NCBI GenBank assembly: GCA_031288415.1 | Contig: JAITRL010000357.1 | Location: forward strand, 1-39,260 | From: Deltaproteobacteria bacterium | GTDB lineage: Bacteria; Desulfobacterota; Desulfarculia; Adiutricales; Adiutricaceae | DNA: 39,260 bases | Reading direction: 5' to 3' | Part shown: positions 2,450 to 33,895 of the stretch, one piece after another | How positions within the stretch are numbered: the stretch's first letter is position 1 | Layout of the letters: every line of letters begins with the position of its first letter | Translations under genes and position numbers: made by a program | Notes under the pieces: generated by a model | What the model was told of the DNA's origin: nothing | Database searches by the model: none | Seen by the model: the letters and a program-made list of their open reading frames with translations, nothing else

Positions 2450-2593
2450 GGAGGCGGCGCGGGCGCGCGCGGTTTCCGGCCCGCGCTGTTCGGGGGCTCG
2501 CGTTAGGTTTTCCCGGTTTTTCCGCCCGTTTTTTCGGGTCCCGGCCGCCGGTTTTTTTGGCCGGGCCGTTCGGCCCGGGATTCCGGGCCCCGG

Positions 2594-2613
2594 AGCCGGC
2601 CGTTCCGGCTTTT
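2594..2613 (+). terminator. Rho-independent terminator downstream of the DegT gene
   Basis: AGCCGG-CCGTT-CCGGCT followed by TTT; further hairpins immediately upstream. Confidence 0.55.
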
Positions 2614-2779
2614 CCCGTTTCCCGTGTTTTTCCCGCCCCAGGGCCCGCCTTCCGCCGGAGGCGGCCCGGCGCTTACGACATGATCAATGCAAAACCCCGG
2701 AATCTTCCGGGGGCAAGCCCTCCGGCCGGGCCGGGGGCGGCGGCCCGCCCGGCCGCGCGGCAAGTGGGAGTACCGCAAG

Positions 2780-3352
2780 ATGACCAACGTAGTGACCGTT
2801 TTAGGAAGCCCCCGCCAGGATGCCTCCTCAGCCAGGCTGGCGGATGCGGTGGCTGAGTCCCTCGCCGGGGGGGCCGGCGCCTCCTCCAGGCATGTCATCA
2901 ACAGCCTCAAGCACGTCAGGGGCTGCCAGGCCTGCCAGGCGTGCAAGGGCAAGTCCGAGACCTGCGTCGTCAAGGACGACTTGGCCCCGGTGCTCGCCGC
3001 GGCGGCATCGGCCGATTTCCTGATCATCGCGGCCCCCAACTACATAGGCGAGATAACCGCCCAGCTGAAGCTCTTCATAGACAGGACCTACTCCTGGTTC
3101 AAGCCCGATTTCCACAGCGCGGCGGAGCCGGGGAGGCTTTCCGGCAAAGGCAAGAAGGCCCTGCTCATCTTCACCCAGGGCAATCCCGACCCGGGGGCCT
3201 ACGCCCGCGCCTACGAGGCCTACAAGGCCTACTTCCAGGGACAGGGCTTCAAGACGGCGTACAAGGCCGTGCCGGTGCCCGTAGGCCCCGGGGCCGACAA
3301 GGCCGTCGCCGACGCCGCGGCGGAGCTCAAGGCCCTCGCGGCCTCCCTGTAG
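2780..3352 (+). CDS. Flavodoxin family / NADPH-dependent FMN reductase-like protein
   Basis: MTNVVTVLGSPRQDASSARLADAV...CQACQACKGKSETCVVKDDL...ADFLIIAAPNYIGEITAQLKLFIDR, typical of multimeric flavodoxin-like reductases. Confidence 0.9.
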   Translation: MTNVVTVLGSPRQDASSARLADAVAESLAGGAGASSRHVINSLKHVRGCQACQACKGKSETCVVKDDLAPVLAAAASADFLIIAAPNYIGEITAQLKLFIDRTYSWFKPDFHSAAEPGRLSGKGKKALLIFTQGNPDPGAYARAYEAYKAYFQGQGFKTAYKAVPVPVGPGADKAVADAAAELKALAASL

Positions 3353-3660
3353 GCCGCGGGGCCCGGTCCGCTGAAGGGGCCTTCCGCCTCCGGAGGGCCC
3401 TTCCGGGCCTCCCGCGCGCCGGTCTTGGCCTGCTCGGGCCGCGGCGCGGGCCGCCGCCTTCCGCCGCAGGTTCCCGTCCTTTCAGGAAGGGGGGGTTCCC
3501 GCCCGCAGGCCCTTGGCCGTCCCTTCCCGGATGCCTGCGGGCCGAAGCCCTGCGGCCGGCCGAAAGATCGCGCGAAGCCTTCCGGTTCCGCTGTTTCGGC
3601 CGCCATGCCCTCCGTTTTCCGTTTGCCCCTCCCCCCCCTCCATTTTTGTAAAGCCTCCGC

Positions 3661-3750
3661 AGTAATACGGCTTGCCGCCCGGGGCTCCTCATTATTCCGG
3701 CTTACGGCCTTGGGGGCCTCGTTATGCCGGCTTGCCGCCAGGGGCGCTTC
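3661..3750 (+). repeat. 30-bp imperfect tandem repeat, 3 copies
   Basis: AGTAATACGGCTTGCCGCCCGGGGCTCCTC / ATTATTCCGGCTTACGGCCTTGGGGGCCTC / GTTATGCCGGCTTGCCGCCAGGGGCGCTTC. Confidence 0.8.
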
Positions 3751-3834
3751 GGCAAAGCGCTTCCGCGGCCAGGCCGGTCGCGCGGGTCGGCGGGGCCGAT
3801 CACCGGGCCGGGCCCCGGTCAGGGATGCGTACGA

Positions 3835-6162
3835 ATGGATTTCCTCAGCGAGTTGAGCGGGGTCATGGCCGAGCTGGGACTTTGCGCGAAGGCCCTGGAC
3901 GCCATGGGCGCCGGCAAGGGCGCGGCCAAGGCCAGGAAGGCCGAGAGGGCTGCGGCCGAAAGCCTCCGCTCGGCGGAGGCCAGGCTGGCCGCGCTGTGCG
4001 CGGCCGGAAGGCCGGCGGGCGCAGGCGCGCTGGGGGAGGCGCTTCTCGAGGCGGTCAGGCTCGCCTCGCGCCTGGGGGACCTGGGCCGCGCCAGGGCCTG
4101 CCACGACAGGCTCATAGGGCTTCCGCCCCCTGAGGGGGGTTCCCAGGGCAAGCTCGAGGCCGCCGCCATCCTCGCTGGGGATTACTTCCTGTGCTGCGAC
4201 TTCGGGGAGGCCGTCTCGGTCCTCCTGGCCGCGAGAAGGCATGCCGGCGGCCGGGCGGGAGCGCAGGCATGGCTCGCCGGGGCGGCGCGCCTGGGCGCCT
4301 CCCTTGCGGAAGAGGGGAGGCTCGAGGAGGCCCTGGCCGTCTACGCCGCCATGCGGCCGCTCCGGCGCTGGGAATTCTCGGGCGCGGAAAGGGCGCGCGC
4401 GGCCCTGGCCATCGTCCGAGGCCTCAGGCTGGCGGGCGACGTCGAGCGGGCTTTCGCGGTCTTCAGGGAGACGGGGTCCTACGCCAAAGGGCCCGAAGCC
4501 TTCCGGCTGCACATGGAGGCCGCGCTCTCGCTTCTCCTGGAGCTTTCCCGGGCCCCCGGGGAGGGCCGCTACGCGTTTCTCTCGCGGGCCCTCAACGACC
4601 CCGCCGAACCCCCGGAGCGCTCGATCCTCAGGGGCGAGGCGGCGCTCGCCTTCGTGACCGGGCGCGCGGCCGTCGGCGATCTGGAGGAGGCCAGGGCGGT
4701 CCTGGACGCCTTCTGCGAATTTTCCGGGGCGGGCCTGGCGGAACTCCACCGCGTGCGCTGCGCGGCAGTCTTGGCCGAGGGCTACATGGATGCGGGGCGC
4801 CTGGACGGCGCCTGGAGGCTCCTGGAAAGCGTGGCGGGCCCTTGGGCCGCTTCCGGCGCCGCCGCGCGGGAGGCTCGGGCCGCGGCCCTGGAGAGCGTCT
4901 CCGCCGGGGCGGCGGGCCCGGTCCTTTCGGAGTCGGCCGGAGCGGACTCCCTCTCCCTGGCCCCGTACGGCCTGATTCTCGGGGCGGCGCTGCGGCTCGC
5001 CGGAGCTTTGTGCGCCGGCGGCCGGGGCCCGGAAGCGCGTGTCCTGTGCGGGCTCACGGCCAGGGCCGCCCCTGGCGGGAGGGAGCTTTCCGCCTTCGCG
5101 GAAGCCGCTTTGGAGGCGGCGGAGGCGAAGTGCAAGGAGGGGCTCGCCCTGGAGGCCCTGGAACTCTGGCGGGCCATGCCGGAGACGGAGGGCCCTCCGG
5201 AAGCCTACGAGCTCGCCAGGTGCCGCATGGGCGCGGCGGCGGTGCGGGGCCTGTGCGCCAAGGGCCATACGGATGAAGCCCTCGCGGCCTGCGCCGCCCT
5301 GCCCGCGCCGCGGGCGCCCGGCGACCGCCTTTACTACGAGCGGCTCCAGGCCGACATGGACGTCTTCAACGCCCTCCTGAGCGCGGGCCTCTGCGGGCCC
5401 GCCGAGCGGCACCTCAGGCGCCGCGCGGACTTCGCGGGGCCGGAGAAGGCAGCCCAGAGATGGCTCGCGGCGGCGGAGAGGCTCGTCGAGTGTTACGCCG
5501 ACAGGGGCAGCCTGTCCAAGGCCAGGGCGATCTTCCGGCTCGCGCGCCGCCGGGCCCCCAAAGCCGGCAGGTTCATCCTGCGGCTCTTCGCCATGTCCCA
5601 GGAGCTCATATCGGCCTACTGCGCCAAAGGCGACCTGGCCTCCGCCAGGGAACTTTACGACGGCCTTCCGGATCCCGGCCCCTCAGTCAGGCTCGAGCAG
5701 GAGAAGGCCGAGATCTTCTTCTTCCTGACCCTCAACTACTGCCGCAAGGGCGAGATCAGGGAAGCCCTGGGCTTCTACCGGAGCCTCCCGGACGAGAGCC
5801 CCACGGGCAAGCTTCCCTACCTCAAGGCCCGCACCGCCTCCTGGCTGATCGCCGACCTCTCCGGCAGGGGGCTCCCCGAGGAGGCGGCCGGCGTCTACGA
5901 AAGCCTGTCCAGGCTGGGCGAGGCTGACGGCCTCGACCTCGTCCGCGCCAAGTCGGCAATCCGCCTGATCACGGCGTTCACCCTGGCCGGGGACACCGAC
6001 AGGGCCCTGGAGCTCCTGCTCGCCATCCCGTCCTTTTGCGACCCCGCCCGCATCGGCAGGCAGCTGAGGGCCGCGGCCGCGGCGCTTTCCCTCGCGCTCT
6101 CCGAGAGGAACGATCCGGAGAAGGCGGGCGCCTTGAAGGCCTTTACCCTGGAGCGCCTGTAG
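3835..6162 (+). CDS. Large alpha-helical repeat (TPR/PPR-like) solenoid protein
   Basis: Repeated helix-turn-helix pattern such as LISAYCAKGDLASARELYDGLPDPGPS, LTLNYCRKGEIREALGFYRSLPDESPT and LVECYADRGSLSKARAIFRLA; no obvious signal peptide. Confidence 0.85.
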   Translation: MDFLSELSGVMAELGLCAKALDAMGAGKGAAKARKAERAAAESLRSAEARLAALCAAGRPAGAGALGEALLEAVRLASRLGDLGRARACHDRLIGLPPPEGGSQGKLEAAAILAGDYFLCCDFGEAVSVLLAARRHAGGRAGAQAWLAGAARLGASLAEEGRLEEALAVYAAMRPLRRWEFSGAERARAALAIVRGLRLAGDVERAFAVFRETGSYAKGPEAFRLHMEAALSLLLELSRAPGEGRYAFLSRALNDPAEPPERSILRGEAALAFVTGRAAVGDLEEARAVLDAFCEFSGAGLAELHRVRCAAVLAEGYMDAGRLDGAWRLLESVAGPWAASGAAAREARAAALESVSAGAAGPVLSESAGADSLSLAPYGLILGAALRLAGALCAGGRGPEARVLCGLTARAAPGGRELSAFAEAALEAAEAKCKEGLALEALELWRAMPETEGPPEAYELARCRMGAAAVRGLCAKGHTDEALAACAALPAPRAPGDRLYYERLQADMDVFNALLSAGLCGPAERHLRRRADFAGPEKAAQRWLAAAERLVECYADRGSLSKARAIFRLARRRAPKAGRFILRLFAMSQELISAYCAKGDLASARELYDGLPDPGPSVRLEQEKAEIFFFLTLNYCRKGEIREALGFYRSLPDESPTGKLPYLKARTASWLIADLSGRGLPEEAAGVYESLSRLGEADGLDLVRAKSAIRLITAFTLAGDTDRALELLLAIPSFCDPARIGRQLRAAAAALSLALSERNDPEKAGALKAFTLERL

Positions 6163-6237
6163 GGCCCGGCGTCCTCGGCCGGCCGCCCGCCGCCGCGAAG
6201 TTCCTGTAACCGCCCGCCGGGAGCCCTGGCCGGAAGA

Positions 6238-6292
6238 GGCCCGATGAGGCCCGATGAGGCCCGATAAGGCCCGATAAGGCCCGATAAGGCCC
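6238..6292 (+). repeat. 10-bp tandem repeat (GGCCCGATRA)x5 plus partial copy
   Basis: ggcccgatga ggcccgatga ggcccgataa ggcccgataa ggcccgataa ggccc read directly. Confidence 0.95.
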
Positions 6293-6819
6293 ATTGCCGC
6301 GCCGGACAGAAAGCCGTCGGCGGCCCGTGTTTTCCCTGCCGCCGTGACTGCCGCGGCGGGGCCGGCGTGAATTCTTCCGCGAGGCGGGACAAGGCGCGCC
6401 TTTATCTCTTTTCCCCGCTTCGCCGCCGCCTGCCGGCGGCTTCGGGAACGGCCCGTCCGGCGTATTCCCTGACCTGTCCCTCCGTAAACCGGGCTCCTGA
6501 TTTCCGCCCGGGACGGCTTGCGCGGGGCCTCGCCGGGAGGATCGGCCTCCGGCTCCAGGATAAGGGGCGGAGCCCGGCCTTGGGAGGAGCGGTCCGGCAA
6601 GAGGCGGCTTCGCGTGGCCCCCCCTGGGCAGGGCGGGCTGTCCGGGCCAGGCGGCCCGGAACGCCCGGCGCCGCGAGGGCTTCCTCCCGGCCGGCAACGG
6701 AGACGGCTGCCTCATGGCGGCCGGCGATACTGCCTGGCGCGCCTGGCGCAGGGCCGGCCGGCCGGGGAAAGCCAGGGCAACGGATTCGCCCTGAGGAAGC
6801 CGCGCGCCTAAACCCCGAT

Positions 6820-19664: not shown

Positions 19665-20555
19665 TCAGCCTCCCTCCCCGCGCCCGCTTCCCGCGCGGGA
19701 GACGAGCGCGCCGACGGCCACCCCGGCGAGTATGGCCAGGATAAGGCCCAGGCTGAAGGGGGCGCCCCGGAAGATCACCGCGCCGGCGCCGGCGGTCAGG
19801 CCCGCCAAAGCTTTGGGCAGCCTGCCGCCGGAAGTGGACTTGAAGACCGAGATCAGCAGGGCCAGGAAGACCATGGGGATGGCCATGGCGAAGGGCAGCG
19901 TCTCCGGGAGGAAGGACCCTGCGGCGTAGCCCAGGGCAGTCATGGCCTGCCAGCCGGACCAGGTGGGGCCGGCCGCTCCCAGGAAGAACCACGCGGGGCT
20001 GCGGGAGAAGCCTTCCTTCAGGAAGGCCGCCATGCTGATGGAGTAGCTCTCGTCGGTCAGGAAGTAGCCGCGCGCGAGCCCGGAGGCGAGCGAGCCCGGA
20101 GGCCCCAGCCCGGGGGCGAGGGACGCCCCGTAAATGACGAGCCTCAGGTTCACCGCCCAGACGGTCAGGACAAGGGCGAGCGCGTTGACGCCCTCGTTCC
20201 AGAGGTTGAGGAACACGAGCTGCGCGGACCCCGCGAAGATCCCCAGGCTCATGGCCTGGGCCTGGAGGCAGCTCAGGCCGGCGTTTTTGGCCGCCGCCCC
20301 GAAGATGAGCCCGAAAGGCAAGAGTCCCATGAGGATAGGCGCGCCCGCCGCGAAGCCCGCCAGGTAGTCGGACCTGATCGCCTTGAAGCGGGGGCCTGAG
20401 GCGCCCTGCGGCCCGGCGGGGGCGGCGGCGGCTTCCGCGGGCGCGGAGGCCGCCGGTCGGGCGGGCTGCCCCGGCGCGGCGGCTTTCCGGCCCGTCTCCG
20501 CGGCCGGCTTCTCGGGCTTGGCGGGGGAGCCGCCGATGGGGGGCTTGGCGGGCAA
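19665..20555 (-). CDS. azlC: AzlC family branched-chain amino acid exporter subunit
   Basis: YLAGFAAGAPILMGLLPFGLIFGAAAKNAGLSCLQAQAMSLGIFAGSAQLVFLNLW...NLRLVIYGASLAP...YFLTDESYSIS; N-terminal Pro/Ala-rich extension. Confidence 0.93.
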   Translation of the reverse strand: MPAKPPIGGSPAKPEKPAAETGRKAAAPGQPARPAASAPAEAAAAPAGPQGASGPRFKAIRSDYLAGFAAGAPILMGLLPFGLIFGAAAKNAGLSCLQAQAMSLGIFAGSAQLVFLNLWNEGVNALALVLTVWAVNLRLVIYGASLAPGLGPPGSLASGLARGYFLTDESYSISMAAFLKEGFSRSPAWFFLGAAGPTWSGWQAMTALGYAAGSFLPETLPFAMAIPMVFLALLISVFKSTSGGRLPKALAGLTAGAGAVIFRGAPFSLGLILAILAGVAVGALVSRAGSGRGEGG

Positions 20556-20697: not shown

Positions 20698-21501
20698 TCA
20701 GCTCAGGATCATGCGGTCCGAGACGGCCCCCTGCACGGCGGGGTTCGCGGCGTGGAAATGGTAGATCAGGTCCTGGACGGTCAGGCGGGACTTCTCCTCG
20801 GCGCTGAAGTCCAGGCAGACCTCCCCGCGGTGCATCATGATGAGCCTTTGGCCGTAGCTGAGGGCCTGCTGCATGTTATGGGTGATCATCACCGCGGTGA
20901 GCCTGTCCCTCTCGATGACGTCGCAGGTCAGGCGCATGACCAGGCCCGCCGTGCGCGGGTCAAGGGCCGCAGTGTGCTCGTCCAGGAGGAGCAGGGACGG
21001 GCGCACCAAAGTGGCCATGAGCAGGGTCAGGGACTGCCTCTGGCCGCCGGAGAGGAAGCCGCAGGGCTCGCCCAGGCGCCTGTCGAGCCCGAGATCCAGG
21101 CTCCCGAGGGCCTCGCGGAAGCGCGCCCGTTCGGCCCGGGTGATCCCCGCGCGCAGGGTCCTGCGCCTCCCGCGGCGCTGGGCCAGGGCCATGTTCTCCT
21201 CGATGGTCATGGAGGCGCAGGTGCCCAGCAGGGGATCCTGGAAGACGCGGCCTATGCGGCCCGCCCGGCGATGCTCGGGCCAGCCCGTGATGTCCGTGCC
21301 ATCCAGCACGATCCTGCCTTCGTCGGGAATGGCGGCCCCGGCGATGCAGGCGAGCAGGGTGGACTTGCCCGCGCCGTTGGAGCCGATCACGGAGACGAAC
21401 TCCCCCGGCCGCACGTCGAGGTCCAGGCGGCAGAGGGCCCGCAGCTCGTTGGCCGTGCCGCGGGCGAAATACTTGGAGAGCCCCCTGACCTTAAGCATCA
21501 C
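20698..21501 (-). CDS. ABC transporter ATP-binding protein
   Basis: Walker A GSNGAGKSTL, signature LSGGQRQ, Walker B LLLLDEHTAALD. Confidence 0.96.
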   Translation of the reverse strand: MMLKVRGLSKYFARGTANELRALCRLDLDVRPGEFVSVIGSNGAGKSTLLACIAGAAIPDEGRIVLDGTDITGWPEHRRAGRIGRVFQDPLLGTCASMTIEENMALAQRRGRRRTLRAGITRAERARFREALGSLDLGLDRRLGEPCGFLSGGQRQSLTLLMATLVRPSLLLLDEHTAALDPRTAGLVMRLTCDVIERDRLTAVMITHNMQQALSYGQRLIMMHRGEVCLDFSAEEKSRLTVQDLIYHFHAANPAVQGAVSDRMILS

Positions 21502-22405
21502 GGGCCGCCTTCCCGCCTTTCCTGCGCAGCGAGTCCCTGAACCTCGGCAGGACCAGGGCGGCCACGACCAGGGCGGCCGTCAGGAGCTTGAGGTCCGAAG
21601 GCTGGAAGGCGATCCCCCAGGGCTTGAAGCTAAGGGCGGCCGCGATCGCCAGGCGGTAGACGACGGATCCCATGACGACGGACAGGATCACGACGGCGAT
21701 CCTGCGGCCGCCCAAGATCGTCTCGCCGATGACTATCGAGGCGAGGCCCGCGACTATGGTGCCCACTCCCATGCCGACGTCGGCGATCCCCTGGTTCTGG
21801 GCGATGAGGGCGCCCGATAGGGCCACCAGGGAGTTGGAGATGCCCACCCCGGTTATGACGGTGAAGTTGGTGTTGACGCCCAGGCTGGTGATCATCTTCG
21901 GGTTCGCGCCGGTGGCGAGCAGGGCCTGGCCGTACTCTGTGCGGATGAGCCAGACGAGGGCCAGGATGACCGCCGAGACGAGGATCACGAAAAGGATGTT
22001 CGAGGCCAGGAAGGGGGAGACGTCGAGCGACCTGATGGGATCGAATACCGTGGGCATGCCCACGAGGGCTATGTTGGGCCTTCCTCCCATCACCCTGATG
22101 TTCACGCTGTAGAGCGCGGTCATGGTGAGGATGGAGGCGAGCAGGTGGAGGATCTTGAGCTTGGTGGTGAGGAAGCCCGTCACCGTGCCGGCCGCGAAGC
22201 CGGCGGCCATGGCGGGCAGGAGCGAGAGGAAGGGGTTCAGGCCTTTGGTCACGCACACCGCGGAGACGGCAGCCCCCAGGGTGAGGCTGCCGTCCACGGT
22301 CAGGTCAGGGAAGTCCAGCACTCTGAAGGTGAGGTACACCCCGAGGGCCATCAGCCCGTAGGCGAGCCCGAGCTCTATGGCCCCTGAAAAGGCGTAAAGG
22401 CTCAC
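21491..22405 (-). CDS. ABC transporter permease (branched-chain/TrpY-like)
   Basis: GLAYGLMALGVYLTFRVLDFPDLTVDGSLTLGAAV...GTIVAGLASIVIGETILG; overlaps both neighbours. Confidence 0.92.
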   Translation of the reverse strand: MSLYAFSGAIELGLAYGLMALGVYLTFRVLDFPDLTVDGSLTLGAAVSAVCVTKGLNPFLSLLPAMAAGFAAGTVTGFLTTKLKILHLLASILTMTALYSVNIRVMGGRPNIALVGMPTVFDPIRSLDVSPFLASNILFVILVSAVILALVWLIRTEYGQALLATGANPKMITSLGVNTNFTVITGVGISNSLVALSGALIAQNQGIADVGMGVGTIVAGLASIVIGETILGGRRIAVVILSVVMGSVVYRLAIAAALSFKPWGIAFQPSDLKLLTAALVVAALVLPRFRDSLRRKGGKAARDA

Positions 22406-23352
22406 TGGACGGTTACTTGCGCCCTGGAGAGCACGGCTTCGGGTATCTGGATGCCGAACTTCTCGGCATAGCCCGGGTTGACGATCAGGGTGAACTCGGT
22501 CTGCTCCTCGACCGGGATGTCGGCCGGCTTGGCCCCTTCCGTGAGGATCCTGGCGGCCATGCGGCCGGTCTGGCGGCCGAGCTGGTAGTAGCTGATGGAG
22601 AGGATCGCGGGCCCGGCCTGGGAAGCCGTGCCGTCGTCGGACGGGTAGACGGGGATCTTGGCGTCAAGGCTCACTTTGAGCACGGATTCGACGCTGGCGA
22701 TCACGGTGTTGTCGGTGGGCAGGTAGATGGCATCTACCTTGCCCACGAGGCTCTGCGCCGCCGCCATTACGCCCGCGGTGTCCGGGGTGACGGCTTCCAC
22801 GAACTCGAGGCCCAGGTCGGCCGCGGACTTGCGGGCGAGCTGCACCTGCACGACGGAGTTGCTCTCGCCGGCGTTGTAGACGACGCCGATTCTCTTGGCG
22901 CCGGGCTGCACCTCCCTGATGAGGGCGAGCTGGGCCGCGACGGGATTGATGTCGGTGGTGCCCGTGACGTTGCCGCCGGGTTTGGCGGTCGAGGCGACCA
23001 GCTTGGCGTCCACAGGGTCGGTCACCGCGGTGAAGAGGATGGGGATGTCCTTCACGCGCTGGGCCGTGACCTGGGCGGAGGGGGTGGCCACGGCGAGCAC
23101 CAGGTCGGGCTTCTCGTCGTTTATCTGGTTCGCGATCTGGAGGACCGTGGGCATGTCGGCCTGGGCGACGTGGTCGTTGTAGGCGACTTCCAGCCCCAGC
23201 TCGGCGAGCTGCTCCTTGAAGCCGCGCACGGCCTCGTCGAGCGCCTTGTGCTCCACGAACTGGTTGATGGAGATCGTGTAGGCCGAGGCGCCTGCGGCCA
23301 GCCCGAAGGCGGAGACGCAGGCTGCGAGAGTCAGGCAGAGAAAGGTTTTCAT
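22402..23352 (-). CDS. ABC transporter substrate-binding protein (PF04392-like, TrpX-type)
   Basis: Signal peptide MKTFLCLTLAACVSAFGLAAG; ISINQFVEHKALDEAVRGFKEQL...ILFTAVTDPVDAKLV...GGNVTGTTDI...IGVVYNAGESNS. Confidence 0.93.
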   Translation of the reverse strand: MKTFLCLTLAACVSAFGLAAGASAYTISINQFVEHKALDEAVRGFKEQLAELGLEVAYNDHVAQADMPTVLQIANQINDEKPDLVLAVATPSAQVTAQRVKDIPILFTAVTDPVDAKLVASTAKPGGNVTGTTDINPVAAQLALIREVQPGAKRIGVVYNAGESNSVVQVQLARKSAADLGLEFVEAVTPDTAGVMAAAQSLVGKVDAIYLPTDNTVIASVESVLKVSLDAKIPVYPSDDGTASQAGPAILSISYYQLGRQTGRMAARILTEGAKPADIPVEEQTEFTLIVNPGYAEKFGIQIPEAVLSRAQVTVQ

Positions 23353-23533
23353 GTGTTCAATCCGCCGCGGGGAATGCGGCCGGCCCCGCGGCGCCTCCGG
23401 TTTTTCGGTTGGGTGAGCGCCCCCTGCCGGGCGGAGCGGCCCGCGCTGGGGGGGCGGAAAGCGGAGCCCGGGGTTCCGCAGCGGGTGGCGGGAACGGCGC
23501 GGGTCGGCGGATTTCACGGGAACTGTCGATCGA

Positions 23534-23562
23534 CTATAAGGCTTTTCCTGCCTGCAAGTCAA
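23534..23562 (-). promoter_or_regulatory. Putative sigma70 promoter of the ABC importer operon
   Basis: Minus strand TTGACT-N17-TTATAG about 180 nt upstream of the start codon at 23352. Confidence 0.6.
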
Positions 23563-24484
23563 TACTGGCAAGGCTTCGGCGCCGCGCCGGGGCTCAGGGA
23601 GACGGCGCCGGGCGGCCGGCAAGGCTCAGGCGGAGTCGGTTCTCCGGCCCTCCGGGCCGTTCGGGGAACTGTCCCGCGCCGGAGCCCCGGAACGCGCCGG
23701 AGGCGCTTGCGGGGCTCCGGCGGGAACGGGGGAGAGGTGGCGTTTCAGGGGAAGGCCGACGGAACGGACGGTACTGGCCAGGGCAAAGGAGCGAGGATTC
23801 CCGTCGGCCGCCGATGGGGGCTCGACGGCCGGCGGCCGGCCCGCGGCGGCCGGGGGGCGCGTGCGCGGCAGCGGCGGGGGAGGGCCCGTGAGAGCGAACG
23901 GGAAAGACAGGGCAGCGGGAGTTCGCTTGACAGCCGCGGGAGGCCGGGAAGGGACCGGCGGATGGAACGGGCCGGCGGCAGGCAGGCCAAGGTTCCGGGG
24001 CTTCGGCTTCCCGGGTCCTGCGCCTCCGGCGGCGGGCGGTCCCGTGCCCCGCAGGGCCTTCGGAGCTGTCCGCCTCCCGCGGCGGACGGCCCCCCGGAGC
24101 GCTTCCCGCGGCGGGAACCGGCGGCCGCGTCTCTGCGCTCGGCGCCGCGGGAAAGAGCCCTGCCGCGCCTTCCTTACAGGAGCGGCGCCATTAGTCGAGA
24201 CGCGCCTGCCCAAGGCTTCAGCAGGCGCCGCCGCCTGCGGGCTTCTTAGGCGGGCTGCCGGCCTCAGGGGCGGGCCGAAGCGTTTAACCGGTTTTCCTTG
24301 TCCGGGCGCATGTCGCAAAATCATCGCCCATGCTCTCGACAGCAGTCACAATTTGCGCTAATTTCGCCCTGTCTTTCACTAATCAGCTAAAACTTTAAAA
24401 AAATTCAGATTTGAAATTTTTTTAAAATTCTGAAAAATCAACACTTTACCTTTCAGAAACACCGAGACGTCACTTACATGCAGG

Positions 24485-25454: not shown

Positions 25455-28400
25455 ATGACCGCGCGGGGGGGGGCCGAGTCCCGGCCGGCCTTTTCCCTTA
25501 ACTTCCGGGACTCCTGGGGCCGGGCGAAGGCGCTGGCGAAGCGCAATACCCTGTCGATCCTCGCGGTGTTCACCGCCGCGGCGGTGCTCGTCGTCTCCCT
25601 GTACACCGGGAGCCTCGTCACGGCCTACCTGGACTCCGACCTCACGACCTTCGCTTCCGACCTCCAGTCGGCCGCGGCCGAGGCGGCGGCCCTGGCCTCC
25701 GGGGACGAGTTCGCGGCCCTCGCGGGTTCCGGGGAGGCGGCCGCCCAAGGCTACCAGCGCCTAAAGAGCCTGCTCGCGGGCCTGCAGACGGGGGGCATGC
25801 GGGTGTGCTACGTGCGCCTGCAGGATGGCTCGGCCAAGGTGGTGGCCGACTCGGGGGCAGGGGGCCCGGCCGGCGTGCCCCAGCGCCCGGGCGATGATTT
25901 CGACGTGTCCTCGCGCAAGGGCCTCTCGGAGGCCTTCGAGGGGATTTTCCCCAGGGCCGAGCCTGTGCGGTTGAGCGCCCGCGCGGACCTTTTCGCGGCC
26001 TACGCCCCCGTCTTCGACTCCTCGGGCGCGGTGACGGCGGTCGCCGCGGCCGAGGCCGTATGGGGCGGCAGGGACCAGGCCTGGGGCGCGGGCATGCGCA
26101 GCATCTCCCTGGTCCAGATAGCCGCTCTCCTGGTCTTTCTGGCCTCGGGGTTCGCGAGCCTTCTGGGCTGGCGGCGCGAGGCCGCCCTCGCCGACGCGGC
26201 CAACTGCAGCAAGTCCATGCTCCTGGCCGGCATGTCCCACGAGATCCGCACCCCCATGAACGCCATCATCGGGCTCTCTGAACTGGCGAGGCGCGATTAC
26301 GGCAAGCTCAGGGCCCTGGAGCACCTGGAAGGCATCAAGACCGCCGGGGCCGGCCTTCTGTCCGTTGTCAACGACATCCTCGAGTTCTCGCGCCTGGAGG
26401 CGGGAGAGCCCGTCCGGGAAGGCAAGCCTTACGGCACTGCCAGGCTCATCATCGGCACCGTCGCCGTGGCCAGGGCCGGGCTGGGCGCGGCCCCCCTCAA
26501 GCTGCTCGTGGACGCCCGCCCGGATCTCCCGGAGACCCTGGTGGGCGACCAGGGGCGGGTCAGGCGCGTGATCTTCAACCTGCTGGGACAGGCTTTCAGG
26601 AACGCCCGGGGGGGGTTCGTGCGCTTCACCGTCGAACGCGAGACCGAGGGCTACGACCTCAGGCTCGTGATGACCGCCGAGGTGCCGGGGGCGGGCCTCA
26701 AGGAAGGCGACATCGATCGCCTTTTCGGCGGATTCAACCCTTCCCGGGACGGGCCGCCGGTCGACCCCGCCCTCGCCTGCGGTCCTGGCGGCAGGTCCCT
26801 CAGGCACACCGACGGGGCCGGGCTGGGCCTCGCCCTGGCCGCGCAGATCTGCCGCGCCCTGGGCGGCAGCCTCACCGTGCGCCCCGGCGCCTCCGGCTCA
26901 GGGGCCGTCTTCCGGGCGGAACTCGTCCAGAAGGTCGCCTCCTGGAAGCCCGTGGGCCAGCTCTTCGAGGCCTCATCCGCCTCCGCAGGGGGCAGTTTCA
27001 AGGCCGGGTTCTACGCGCCAGACGCCAAGGTGCTCGTCGCCTGCGGCACCGAAAGGGGCGTTCAGGAGCTCGCAGCCCTCCTGGCCCCCTACCGCATCAC
27101 CCCGGACGTGGCCTTGAGCGGCGAGGAGGCCCTGGAGCGGATCGCCGCCAGGGACTACGATCTCGTGCTGGTCGATCAGGTCATGCCCGGCCTGGGCGGG
27201 GTGGGCGTCTGCCGCCGCGTGAGGTGCGCCGTGGGCGGCCGCTTCGAGTGTCTGCCAGTGGTCGCCCTCGCGCAACCCCATGCCGAGGACGAGGCGGATG
27301 TGCTCACCTCCGCCGGGTTTTCCGGGGCCCTGGCCAAGCCGGTGGATCCTGCGGACCTGGACGAGGCCCTGAACAGGTGGATCCCCGACTCCAAGATCTT
27401 CTCCCGGCTCGATGGCCCGCAGGAGAGGCGCCGTTCCGCCTGGCCCGGCGGCATTGGCCGCCACAGGAGCGGCCTGCCGGACCTCCCGTCCCTGAACCGT
27501 CCGCTCGCGGGCCCAGTGGGCTTCGACGAGGAGGCCTGGGCCCGTTCGGTCTCCGTGTCGGAAGAGCTCAAACGCGTCGGGAGGAGCGGGGCCTGCTGGA
27601 CCTCCGTGCCGCATCCGGGGGCCAGGGCGCCTGTCAATTCTCCGGGCGCCTTCCCTGCCGTTCACTTGGCGTCTGGCGGCCGGCCGGCTGATACGAACGA
27701 TGCCGCCGCCTCCGGGCTTTCCTCAGGCGCCGCCGCCCAGGGGGCCTCCCCCGCTGAAAAAGCCTCCGCCGAGGGCGGCTCCGCCCCTGCCGAGGAAGGC
27801 GCCCCTGGAGGGGGTTCCGCCCGCGCCGACGGCGCCCGGCACGCCGGAGACCCGTTCCCTGTCTTTCTGGAAGGGGTCGACCGCGAGATCGGCCTCTCGC
27901 TGGCGGGCGGCTCCGAGAGGCGCTACCTCTCTCACCTGCAGGTGTTTTCCTCCGCCTCCAGGGGGGTGCTCGAAAGGCTCTACCAGGAACCCTGCCATGA
28001 CCCGGCCCTCAAGCCGCTGGGGCCTCCGGCGGACATGGCAGGCCGAGGCATCGGGCCCGTCTTCCGCGTCATCTCGGAAACCCGTAAGCAGGAGGCGGTG
28101 GAAAGCCTCTCGCCCCCCGCCGCCGATGGGGCGCCAGCCCAGTTCGCCCAGTTCGGCGACGGGGGGCTTCCCGGCCAGGGAGGCGGGGAATCCCCGCCTC
28201 AGCCCTCCGGGCCCCAGCCGTTCACAAACTCGGAGTTCGTCTTCGTCGCGCGCACCCTCAAGTCATGCCTGGCCGGCATAGGGGCCGAAGCCCTCTCCTT
28301 CGAGGCCATGCTCCTCGAAAGGGCCGGGCGCGCGGGGGACGCCCCCTACCTCGCCAGAAACCTTCCCGCTTTCCGGGAGGGCCTGTCCAGGCTGATCCTT

Positions 28401-28847
28401 GGCGTGGAGAGCGCCTCCCTCGGCGAGCCCTCGGGGACGGAAGCCTCTCCTGGGGAGCATGGGGACCATGCCGCTTCCGAAGGCGCAGCGGTTCACGGGC
28501 CCTCAGGCCTCTTACGGGCCTTGGCGGCCCCAGGGGACGGAAGGGCCGCTCCGGCGGCCTCCGACGCGGCTTTCTCGCCCCTCCCGCCCGGCCGCTCCGG
28601 CGCGGCCGGGCGGGGCGCCTCCCCCGTCCTGTTCGAGGAGCTCTTGCGCCTGGAGGCGGCCTTGGGCTCCAGGGACATGGATGCCGTGGACGCGGCCGTC
28701 CCTCAGATACTCGCCCGTTGCTGGTCCGAGGGGGTACGCCGCGAGGCGGAGCGGATTTCCAGGGGGGCGGGGGGCGGAGCCGGCGGCTCCCCTGAGGGCG
28801 AAGCCCGCAGGCCCCCGCTCTCCGGCGCGGGGGGAAAGGACGCCTGA
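25455..28847 (+). CDS. Hybrid sensor histidine kinase-like protein (degenerate CA domain, REC, Hpt-like C-terminus)
   Basis: Two TM segments, H-box MSHEIRTPMNAIIGLSELAR, degenerate NLLGQAFRN and EVPGAGL, G2 box DGAGLGLALA, REC DLVLVDQVMPG...ALAKPVD, Hpt-like FLEGVDREIGLSLAGGSERRYL...ARTLKSCLAGIGAEAL. Confidence 0.92.
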   Translation: MTARGGAESRPAFSLNFRDSWGRAKALAKRNTLSILAVFTAAAVLVVSLYTGSLVTAYLDSDLTTFASDLQSAAAEAAALASGDEFAALAGSGEAAAQGYQRLKSLLAGLQTGGMRVCYVRLQDGSAKVVADSGAGGPAGVPQRPGDDFDVSSRKGLSEAFEGIFPRAEPVRLSARADLFAAYAPVFDSSGAVTAVAAAEAVWGGRDQAWGAGMRSISLVQIAALLVFLASGFASLLGWRREAALADAANCSKSMLLAGMSHEIRTPMNAIIGLSELARRDYGKLRALEHLEGIKTAGAGLLSVVNDILEFSRLEAGEPVREGKPYGTARLIIGTVAVARAGLGAAPLKLLVDARPDLPETLVGDQGRVRRVIFNLLGQAFRNARGGFVRFTVERETEGYDLRLVMTAEVPGAGLKEGDIDRLFGGFNPSRDGPPVDPALACGPGGRSLRHTDGAGLGLALAAQICRALGGSLTVRPGASGSGAVFRAELVQKVASWKPVGQLFEASSASAGGSFKAGFYAPDAKVLVACGTERGVQELAALLAPYRITPDVALSGEEALERIAARDYDLVLVDQVMPGLGGVGVCRRVRCAVGGRFECLPVVALAQPHAEDEADVLTSAGFSGALAKPVDPADLDEALNRWIPDSKIFSRLDGPQERRRSAWPGGIGRHRSGLPDLPSLNRPLAGPVGFDEEAWARSVSVSEELKRVGRSGACWTSVPHPGARAPVNSPGAFPAVHLASGGRPADTNDAAASGLSSGAAAQGASPAEKASAEGGSAPAEEGAPGGGSARADGARHAGDPFPVFLEGVDREIGLSLAGGSERRYLSHLQVFSSASRGVLERLYQEPCHDPALKPLGPPADMAGRGIGPVFRVISETRKQEAVESLSPPAADGAPAQFAQFGDGGLPGQGGGESPPQPSGPQPFTNSEFVFVARTLKSCLAGIGAEALSFEAMLLERAGRAGDAPYLARNLPAFREGLSRLILGVESASLGEPSGTEASPGEHGDHAASEGAAVHGPSGLLRALAAPGDGRAAPAASDAAFSPLPPGRSGAAGRGASPVLFEELLRLEAALGSRDMDAVDAAVPQILARCWSEGVRREAERISRGAGGGAGGSPEGEARRPPLSGAGGKDA

Positions 28848-30892
28848 TGGGGGAGGAATCCGCAGAGGGCGGGCGATTCAGGAGGGGGCTGGACGGCCAC
28901 ACGATTTTCATAGCGTTCATCGTCTCCCTGGGGGCGGTGCTGGCCCTGTCCTTCTACACCTTCATCGTCATCCGCGGGTACATGAAGGCCCAGGAGGATG
29001 ACTTCGTCAGGCGCCTCAAGCGCCAGGCCGTCTCGGCGGCGGCCCTTGTGAGCGCGGACGAGCTTTCCCGCTTCAACGGGCCCGAGGACGCTTCGCTCCG
29101 CGAGTACGCGGACCTCAAGTCCCGCGTCAAGGCCTTCGCCGAACGGCTCGGCGCGGCGGGGGTGCGGTATTTCCGCATCGTCCCCGACGGCAGGATTCAG
29201 TACATAATCGACGGCGCCAACGACGAGGCCAAGCGGATCGGGATCGACGTGGAGCCCGTGGCGGCCGAGGCCGAGCCGGGGGCGGGCGCCGCCTGGTTCG
29301 AAGGCAAGGTCAACGTCAGCGGGGTAGGGTCAGGGGAGGCGGCCTGGGACGGCCTGGCCGTCTCTTACGCCCCGGTGAAGCGCCCTGACGGGGCGGTGGC
29401 GGCCGTGGCGGGCGTGGCCGTGGACGACAGTTTCATCAGGGAATCAAGTTCCCGGATGACCCTGTTCCTGTCCATTCAGACTGTAGCGGTGTTCCTGGTC
29501 AGCGTCTGCGGGCTCGCCTCCATCTTCTCGAGCCGCCGCGCGGCCAGGCGCGCGGCGGCCGCCATGCGGGCCAAGACCTCCTTCCTGGCCCGCATGAGCC
29601 ACGAGATCCGCACCCCCATGGCCGCGGTGGTGGGCCTGGCCGAGCTGGCCCAGCGCGAGTACGGCGGCCCCAGGGCGGTCGAGCGCATCAACGGCATCTC
29701 CATGGCCGGCGCCAGCCTCATCGCCGTCATAGACGACATACTGGACATCTCCAAGGTGGAGCAGGGGAAGGTCACCCTCAAGTGCCGCCGCTACTGGACC
29801 GGGGCCCTGCTCAGCGAGGCCGCCGCGGTGGCGGCGGTGCGCATCGGCGAGCGTCCCCTCAAGTTCGAGCTCGACGCCCCTCCCGATCTGCCTGCCGAGC
29901 TGTACGGGGACGGGGGGCGCGTCAAGCAGATCCTCCTTAACCTGCTCAACAACGCCGTCAAGTACACCCCGCGAGGCACGGTGAGCCTCAAGGTCAGGGT
30001 CAAGGCCCTTTCTCCGGACCCTTCCCCGGCGGGCGGCCAGCGCCTCCCTGCGGCTCCCCCTCCCGCGCCGTGGCGCCAGCGGCGCGCCTCCGGCCCCGGT
30101 CCTGGGGGCGGCGACCTGCGCGATGGCGACGTCTCCGCCATGCCGCAGGCGCTTTTCAGCTTCCGGGTGCAGGACAGCGGCGTGGGCATCAGGCCGGGGG
30201 ACCTGAAGCGGATTTTCCGGGAGTACTCGCGCGTGGACCATGACAGCAACAGCGGAGTGGAGGGGACCGGCCTGGGGCTCTCCATCGCCCGCAACCTGGC
30301 ACGGGCCATGGGCGGCGACATCCACGCGGAGAGCGTGTACGGGCAGGGATCGGTTTTCACGGCGGAGATGCTCCAGCGGGTGGCCGACCTTTCCCCCATG
30401 GGGGAGCTGGGCTCGGCCCCTGCGGCCGCGAGGGAGACGGCCAGGGTAAGTTTCACGGCGCCGGAGGCCTCCATATTGGTGGTGGATGATCTCCCCAGCA
30501 ACCTCATAGTGGCGGAAGGGCTCATCGCCCCGTACCAGGCACGGGTCTCGACCGCCTCCAGCGGCCGGGAGGCGGTGCTGGCCCTGGAGAAGCGCAACTA
30601 TGACCTGGTGCTTCTGGACCACATGATGCCGGGCATGGACGGCATCGAGACGGCCCAGGCCATCCGCGCCGCCGACGAGGGGCGGTACTCGTCCCTGCCG
30701 GTCATAGCCTTCACCGCCAACGCGCTGGTAGGCATGCGGGAATATTTCCTGGAGAACGGTTTCGACGACTTCATGGCCAAACCCATGGACGTGGAGGAGC
30801 TTGACAGGATCCTGAGCAGGTGGATCCCGGACTCCAAAAAGAAGCCGATGCCTCCGCGCGAGAAAAACGGCGTGGCCGCGTTAGGCCTGTAG
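28847..30892 (+). CDS. Hybrid sensor histidine kinase/response regulator (canonical motifs)
   Basis: H-box MSHEIRTPMAAVVGLAELAQ, N-box NLLNNAVKYT, G1 QDSGVGI, G2 GTGLGLSIA, REC DLVLLDHMMPGMDG...FMAKPMD; TGATG overlap with the upstream gene. Confidence 0.96.
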   Translation: MGEESAEGGRFRRGLDGHTIFIAFIVSLGAVLALSFYTFIVIRGYMKAQEDDFVRRLKRQAVSAAALVSADELSRFNGPEDASLREYADLKSRVKAFAERLGAAGVRYFRIVPDGRIQYIIDGANDEAKRIGIDVEPVAAEAEPGAGAAWFEGKVNVSGVGSGEAAWDGLAVSYAPVKRPDGAVAAVAGVAVDDSFIRESSSRMTLFLSIQTVAVFLVSVCGLASIFSSRRAARRAAAAMRAKTSFLARMSHEIRTPMAAVVGLAELAQREYGGPRAVERINGISMAGASLIAVIDDILDISKVEQGKVTLKCRRYWTGALLSEAAAVAAVRIGERPLKFELDAPPDLPAELYGDGGRVKQILLNLLNNAVKYTPRGTVSLKVRVKALSPDPSPAGGQRLPAAPPPAPWRQRRASGPGPGGGDLRDGDVSAMPQALFSFRVQDSGVGIRPGDLKRIFREYSRVDHDSNSGVEGTGLGLSIARNLARAMGGDIHAESVYGQGSVFTAEMLQRVADLSPMGELGSAPAAARETARVSFTAPEASILVVDDLPSNLIVAEGLIAPYQARVSTASSGREAVLALEKRNYDLVLLDHMMPGMDGIETAQAIRAADEGRYSSLPVIAFTANALVGMREYFLENGFDDFMAKPMDVEELDRILSRWIPDSKKKPMPPREKNGVAALGL

Positions 30893-32297: not shown

Positions 32298-33895
32298 TCA
32301 ACCGCTCCTGATGTACTCATTGAGATCATCAATGGTCACGCCAAACCGGGAAAGAATCTCCCGTTGCTTCTTTGTGAGCGGATTCAGAAGCCGCATGGCC
32401 CCTTGACTCATGATGGCCCGGATTGTGGAGAGCTCATCGATGACATCCTTTGCGGTTAACCTATTGGTTTCCATCCATTTTGAAAGAATATTTCTAAGAT
32501 ATAGTCTAACAATAAGTGATACAAATGCGCAGAACATTTTGCCTTCTGTCGTTTTTTGCTTATGGGTTCTGAGACGTTTCATGTCAGTATGGTTTTTGAT
32601 TTCATCAAGGTTTTTTTTCTGTTATGTCTCTGTTTTTATATATGGATATGATTTATTTTGATGTTAAAGTCGTATTCGTGAGTATGCAGGCATATCCAAG
32701 ATCTTTGGCTATAGCGTCAATGGCTTCGAAATCCCTGGTCCAGCGCGGCCCTCCGGAATTATCGCGTTTAGGGAGGCTGAAGCAGCGGATGAATTCGCGT
32801 ATTTCCGCCTTTGTCAGTTCATTCTTCCGCGACAACGTCTCCTCATCGGAAGCGGTTTTCCTGCAGAGGCCGTCGGTTTGATCCGCGGCAAGCTCAGGGT
32901 TGAAATGAACGTGCAGCGTTGATGCCGCTCCATGATATTCTCCCCTTACCGCAAGACCAAACATTTTGAAGCCGTCGAGACAGTTGCAGGATGACTGGAC
33001 TGAAGCACGGTGCCGCAATATCGTCTCTTTAACGGCCTTTGCGCGGTTCTCAAACGCCGTCATGAGCGGGTACCCGTTTTGACGCATAAACTCTATGTTA
33101 GCCGCAGACGCAAAACCCCAGCCCAGGACAAAGCAAACCCCTTTAATGCCGTAATCCTCGTTATGCTCCATCATGAATTTGAGATGCGACTTGTCGACTA
33201 TCGCGCCCTGATAAGCGGCATAAAACGCAGGAGGCATGGACTGCCGCCCCAAATACATCGCCATATTGATCCGCGGCAGACGGTCACCGTCACGGTCATA
33301 TCCAGTCTCATCGTCAAGGATGCCTTTAGCGTAGGTTGAGCGCGATGTCACGCCGTAAGCAAAATATTCCGTCTGGGTCCTGCGCGGCGCCCGCTTTTTG
33401 AAAAACCTCATACGCTCGACGCAGCCGATTGACTCGAACAGCCGCGACGCTTCCTGGCCTGTCATGGACAGCGAGGGCATGGTCCGCTCGAAAGGCGCTC
33501 CAGGCGGCTCATCACGTTGCCTTCAGCAGGCATATACGCCGCTATGCCGGACACGCGCGCTGAACCGGAGGGGATCAAGGAACTCTCAAGTATCTCCCTG
33601 ACGCCTAGAGAAGACAGGATTCCGCGCGACAGGAAGGGCACGCCGATTTCGTAAACCGTGCCGTCATCGCGCGGTGTCCTGACATCAACGTGAGAGGCTC
33701 TCTCGCCATAGAATTCGTAGTAGGCGTTATTCGGGATCAGAAGTCCTGCATCTTTGTCCAGTTTGCCGATGGACTTCCTCTTATTGGTCGGCTGCCCTTT
33801 GCTGTAACGGCAAGTCCCCAAGACGTGAAACACGTACGGGTACCTGCCGGTCTTGGCGACAATGATGCCTTTGTCGGAAAGAGGGACCCGGCAAT
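32298..33895 (-). pseudogene. IS1634-like (DDE) transposase remnant with frameshifts and an in-frame stop
   Basis: Three colinear pieces: KRKSIGKLDKDAGLLIPNNAYYEFYG...AAYMPAEGNVM; MPSLSMTGQEASRLFESIG...TNTTLTSK*; IYKNRDITEKK(frameshift)LDEIKNHTDMKRLRTHKQKTTEGKMFCAFVSLIVRLYL; AT-richer than the surroundings. Confidence 0.88.

Follow-up and report, generated by a model that had tools for sequence, protein, structure and literature searches.

A conserved hybrid histidine kinase with an apparently ATP-dead catalytic domain and intact DHp helices is encoded beside a tandem kinase in a genus of Adiutricaceae

Several degenerate histidine kinases are known to regulate other kinases. The pseudo-histidine kinase DivL of Caulobacter crescentus, which has lost its phosphoacceptor His and is named a tyrosine kinase in the title of structure 4q20, regulates another kinase, CckA, and RcsD of enterobacteria, the membrane partner of a hybrid kinase, combines a degenerate kinase core with a live Hpt through which it works. 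RetS of Pseudomonas aeruginosa is a hybrid kinase with a degenerate HATPase and an intact HExxT motif that does not autophosphorylate and that lowers GacS signalling in three ways, by taking phosphate (for which its receiver Asp858 is required, the donor being GacS-P), by dephosphorylating the GacS receiver and by inhibiting autophosphorylation (PMC5992135). Bacterial pseudo-receivers without the acidic pair and Thr have also been described (PMC12632262).

The genes considered here lie in the window, a 39,260-nucleotide stretch of a Deltaproteobacteria genome of the family Adiutricaceae (assembly GCA_031288415.1, contig JAITRL010000357.1), and are termed HK1 and HK2 (Table 1). HK1 shares the domain order of the tripartite BarA/GacS-type hybrid kinases (HisKA-HATPase_c-REC-Hpt), arranged as TM-sensor-TM-DHp-CA-REC-linker-Hpt with all domains recognisable; however, all the active sites are intact in canonical homologs of this type from the same family, whereas HK1 keeps only that of the DHp. 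A sequence-only reading of this DNA had described HK1 as a hybrid kinase with an intact H-box and an ATP-dead catalytic domain, and the frame, coordinates and codons that it named are exact. The ATG at 25455, not an earlier GTG, is the start matched by ortholog alignment, and the HisKA (55 bits), HATPase_c (44.6 bits) and Response_reg (42.5 bits) profiles are each still recognised above the Pfam cut-off.

Table 1. Coordinates of the features of the HK1/HK2 locus and of related genes in the congener G003 (positions are those of the window unless a locus is named).
Feature	Position	Strand	Basis
HK1, pseudo hybrid histidine kinase, 1130 aa	25455..28847	+	open frame, ortholog-aligned start, Pfam
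HK1 two TM helices and periplasmic Cache-like sensor, aa 30-240	25542..26174	+	predicted
HK1 DHp/HisKA, aa 253-317	26211..26405	+	Pfam E=8.6e-15
HK1 degenerate CA/HATPase_c, aa 364-490	26544..26924	+	Pfam E=2.3e-11
HK1 N-box Mg-coordinating Asn to Gln379 (CAG)	26589..26591	+	Q in 6/6 orthologs
HK1 G1-box adenine-contacting Asp to Val410 (GTG)	26682..26684	+	V in 6/6 orthologs
HK1 pseudo-receiver, aa 523-646	27021..27392	+	active-site residue alignment
HK1 pseudo-Hpt	27873..28424	+	hhalign, sub-threshold Pfam Hpt, Foldseek
HK2, tandem hybrid kinase, 681 aa, HisKA-HATPase_c-REC, no Hpt	28847..30892	+	
ABC_sub_bind (PF04392) substrate-binding protein	22402..23622	-	Pfam E=3.1e-83, synteny
ABC transporter permease, divergent operon	21491-22405	-	Pfam, synteny
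ABC transporter ATPase, divergent operon	20698-21501	-	Pfam, synteny
G003 HK2 and HK2-like genes	L130 (G003:C144) 2456-4450 and 4651-6645; L121/L131 (G003:C281)	- (L130)	

In the AlphaFold model of residues 20-655 (pLDDT 76.9), the DHp, CA and receiver folds are preserved and the ATP-lid region falls below pLDDT 50. The top Foldseek matches to this model include ShkA, DivL, HK853, GacS and RetS; because these best matches comprise both active and inactive kinases, fold alone cannot tell the two apart. The sensor is modelled as an alpha/beta domain flanked by long helices, and neither Pfam nor a sequence search of the PDB gave a significant match to this region, the nearest indication being a weak match of sCache_3_3 to the sensor of a canonical homolog (E=0.04). 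Past the receiver, positions 27393-27872 encode a long low-complexity linker that is evolving fast.

The phosphoacceptor His262 (CAC, 26238-26240), within MSHEIRTPMNAIIGL, and Thr266 of the HExxT motif are both intact and kept in all six orthologs, in keeping with the H-box originally claimed. At the ATP site, the usual role of the N-box Asn is to coordinate the metal of Mg-ATP, and that of the G1 Asp is to contact the adenine amine (PMC10017428); in HK1, Gln379 sits at the second Asn of NLLxN and Val410 occupies the Asp position of DxGxG. Both replacements had been called from the letters alone, and both are confirmed by alignment with the catalytic Asn and Asp of canonical relatives and of the solved GacS (7z8n). 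The G2 box GAGLGL is retained in 6/6 orthologs, and in the G1 box the second Gly persists in HK1 of the window but is missing from the other five. With two nucleotide-contacting residues replaced, and the replacements conserved genus-wide, the assignment of HK1 as an ATP-dead pseudokinase is strongly supported on residue grounds, and we infer that it is unable to bind ATP.

To place these changes among related kinases, we compared 74 H-box-positive cores drawn from this genome and its relatives, gathered by an H-box-based search that misses kinases without the motif, and only the six HK1s lacked the N-box Asn and G1 Asp. Both residues are present in 68/68 of the other cores, none of which carries the changes to Gln and Val that all six congeners share. 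The loci were collected by similarity to HK1 and HK2 and represent less than a complete kinome; a profile scan without the H-box requirement added three more degenerate members, all in a single congener (G003).

The sequence-only reading missed the state of the two C-terminal domains and the significance of the tandem partner kinase. In the receiver of HK1, the acidic pair is replaced by Cys530-Gly531 and the Thr by Ala606, with Asp574 and Lys628 still present; across the orthologs, Cys, Gly and Ala are found in 6/6, the Asp in 6/6 and the Lys in 5/6. At the same positions in the 68 other cores, the first acidic residue is Asp in 61 and Glu in 6, and the second is Asp in 66. Like the bacterial pseudo-receivers described previously (PMC12632262), the HK1 receiver is without the acidic pair and Thr, but it keeps Asp574 and lies within a pseudokinase. 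Within the C-terminal third, a diverged domain aligns with the Hpt of the canonical family by hhalign (probability 99.5, E=5.8e-23), with Arg933 (CGC, 28251-28253) opposite the Hpt His; this position is Arg in five of the six species and Lys in G003. The Pfam Hpt match is below threshold (E=0.08), and a model of the region, of low overall confidence (pLDDT 57.7), has Hpt proteins as its best Foldseek matches, none of them significant by E-value (HptB: E=0.69, probability 0.97). By these residue criteria neither domain qualifies as functional, and since both appear dead, a phosphoryl group on His262 could not travel along HK1 itself. A gene annotated by Pfam as a hybrid histidine kinase, with three domains above cut-off, can therefore apparently be dead at every step of the relay beyond the first His. 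A variable low-complexity insert (28062-28225) splits the bundle of the Hpt remnant.

Orthologs of HK1 occur in 6/6 genomes of the genus, with 62-65% identity over the main part of the protein. A search of 57 further genomes from the class at E<=1e-85 recovered none, and a scan of genome contigs outside the genus returned only one remote match, at 26%. By the Nei-Gojobori method, the DHp is the most constrained part of HK1 (mean dN 0.060, median dS 0.62), followed by the CA (0.21), the receiver (0.23) and the linker (0.66), with median dS ranging from 0.6 to 0.9 across regions; the receiver of HK2 has a mean dN of 0.073, versus 0.23 in HK1. As dN is well below dS in each folded domain, HK1 is under purifying selection, which is strongest at the DHp. 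Chance, sequencing error or a frameshift as the source of the losses is ruled out by the agreement of 6/6 orthologs, and the conservation of the replacement residues together with their neighbours (LLGQA, AEVPGA) suggests selection for a new state rather than decay. At the level of sequence, the losses of ATP-site, receiver and Hpt residues, their conservation, the constraint on the DHp and the co-location with HK2 are established: HK1 is real, conserved and, by the available residue criteria, catalytically inactive, a variant of the known regulatory pseudo-histidine kinases.

HK1 lies directly upstream of HK2, and of the five loci examined, four, including the window, show a TGATG overlap between the two genes. 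HK2 has its own intact receiver and is canonical in five of the six species (the window and four of the five others). The exception is G003, in which its G2 box is broken (GNPSLGL), so that HK2 is probably inactive as a kinase there. In the same genome, a third tandem copy and an unlinked HK2-like copy are without the H-box His and most residues of the G boxes, but their receiver is intact. The kinase cores of this family have thus decayed more than once as judged from their motifs, and in a pattern complementary to HK1, which keeps its His and loses its receiver, whereas two G003 paralogs lose the His and keep the receiver. Given this repeated decay, which includes HK2 of G003, HK2 is unlikely to serve as a universal source of phosphate.

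The sequence-only reading proposed that HK1 could be phosphorylated in trans or act allosterically; of the known systems, RetS is the closest to have been studied, and it points to interference with a partner together with phosphatase action by way of HExxT. Both are hybrid kinases with a degenerate HATPase and an intact HisKA bearing HExxT, and their DHp-CA regions are similar (E=5.5e-21 to 6dk7). The lesions differ, however: in the alignment, the N-box Asn and G1 Asp are present in RetS, which is changed at later G1/G2 positions, whereas HK1 loses these two residues and keeps the G2 box; moreover, the RetS receiver takes phosphate, whereas the receiver and Hpt of HK1 are dead and its presumed target adjoins it. 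HK1 may therefore work like RetS, with which it shares the degenerate HATPase and intact HisKA, but for want of a phosphorylatable receiver it is not classed as a RetS member. DivL has a similar DHp-CA fold but is without the phosphoacceptor His that HK1 keeps, HK1 having lost ATP-site residues instead, and HK1 is the reverse of RcsD, its Hpt being dead and its DHp intact.

HK1 probably acts as a regulator of the neighbouring kinase rather than as an enzyme. By analogy, we give an even chance to its being a regulatory pseudokinase of the RetS kind, acting on HK2 through the DHp by inhibition and/or by HExxT phosphatase action. Conserved, membrane-bound and made together with the tandem HK2, HK1 would neither use ATP nor relay phosphate while keeping its dimerisation helices, phosphoacceptor His and HExxT; it would sense a periplasmic signal and pass control to HK2 by DHp-DHp contact, either because the HK1-HK2 heterodimer is unproductive, or because HK1 serves as a transmitter phosphatase on the HK2 receiver, as RetS does on GacS, or both. 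The physical partnership, the direction of control and the existence of a ligand we infer. Because its receiver is dead, HK1 retains what phosphatase action and inhibition need but not what phosphate-taking needs, and it is the fit to these two of the three RetS mechanisms that favours inhibition and/or phosphatase action on HK2. Control of HK2 is further supported by the ATP-site and receiver losses, identical in 6/6, by the loss of the Hpt His in 6/6, by the retention of His262 and the HExxT Thr under the strongest constraint, that on the DHp, and by the adjacency of the two genes; structures of RetS and DivL rank high among the matches by fold and by sequence, but so do those of the canonical GacS and HK853, with comparable scores. 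Against it stand the broken HK2 of G003, the differing lesions of RetS and the fact that HK1 and HK2 are not sisters in the tree. More tentatively, the pair may be a two-protein sensor confined to this genus: a triple-dead pseudokinase with an intact DHp would serve its tandem kinase as an obligate subunit or as a regulator, within a family that repeatedly loses active sites in complementary patterns. Control of this kind would extend RetS/DivL-type pseudokinase regulation to an unstudied lineage, and HK1 would offer a clean natural case of why the DHp alone is kept after ATP use, the receiver and the Hpt have all been lost, the presumed target being encoded by the adjoining gene.

The main alternative, which we regard as possible but unlikely, is that HK1 supplies the phosphoacceptor: within a heterodimer, the CA domain of HK2 would phosphorylate His262, which would then donate to the receiver of HK2 or to another one, so that one kinase would be split over two proteins. 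The conservation of His262 and the DHp above all other parts of HK1 fits this arrangement, as do the canonical HK2 with its intact receiver in five of six species and the inability of the HK1 receiver and Hpt to accept phosphate, which would oblige transfer to another protein; yet the His of HK2 itself is intact, which makes an extra acceptor redundant, HK1 persists in G003 despite the broken G2 box of HK2, and a phosphatase function explains the conservation of HExxT equally well. That persistence could instead mean that the chief target of HK1 is not HK2 but another kinase, the many further hybrid kinases in the genome being candidates, or that HK1 is a DivL-like scaffold needing no phosphorylation; DivL is a precedent, but the conserved adjacency and usual overlap point to HK2 and make this very unlikely.

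It is improbable, too, that HK1 binds nucleotide non-canonically, whether weakly, without Mg or as another nucleotide, and acts as a low-activity kinase or nucleotide sensor. Its fold and G2 box are preserved, and VanS kinases still work with the G1 Asp changed to Asn, although with very weak ATP affinity (PMC10017428); however, Asn can hydrogen-bond adenine, whereas the hydrophobic Val of HK1 cannot, the Mg-coordinating Asn is gone as well in 6/6 species, and the dead receiver and Hpt leave nothing downstream inside HK1. The loss of several active sites, the long stem branch and the fast-evolving linker might finally suggest a decaying gene without function, but this is already contradicted by conservation and we give it hardly any weight: open frames are full-length wherever the contig is unbroken, every folded domain is under constraint, and the replacements (GQA, EVPGA, CG) are fixed in 6/6 at a conserved operon position.

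An origin of HK1 as a recent duplicate of HK2 is unsupported, as the tree places HK1 on a long stem, grouped with two other genes, a placement in which long-branch attraction is possible; as the two are not sisters, a recent duplication gives no ground for expecting them to heterodimerise. In HK2, a low-complexity insert of Pro, Gly, Ala and Arg (30005-30136) lies in the CA domain between the N-box and G1 box; it is found in orthologs at very variable length, exceeding 100 aa in G004. The ABC transporter operon divergent from HK1 is a conserved neighbour, and the block of YceG-LptF-LptG, HK2-HK1 and substrate-binding protein-permease-ATPase is kept in G001, G004 and G005, except where contigs or fetched segments end. 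Downstream of HK2, two minus-strand frames (32653-33833) resemble a broken transposase; they have no counterpart in the orthologous loci, and 32653-33480 has no Pfam match. An AzlC-family gene (19665-20555, minus strand) adjoins the ABC transporter operon, and G001 carries two tandem ABC_sub_bind copies (L040, 13789-16035) compared with one in the window.
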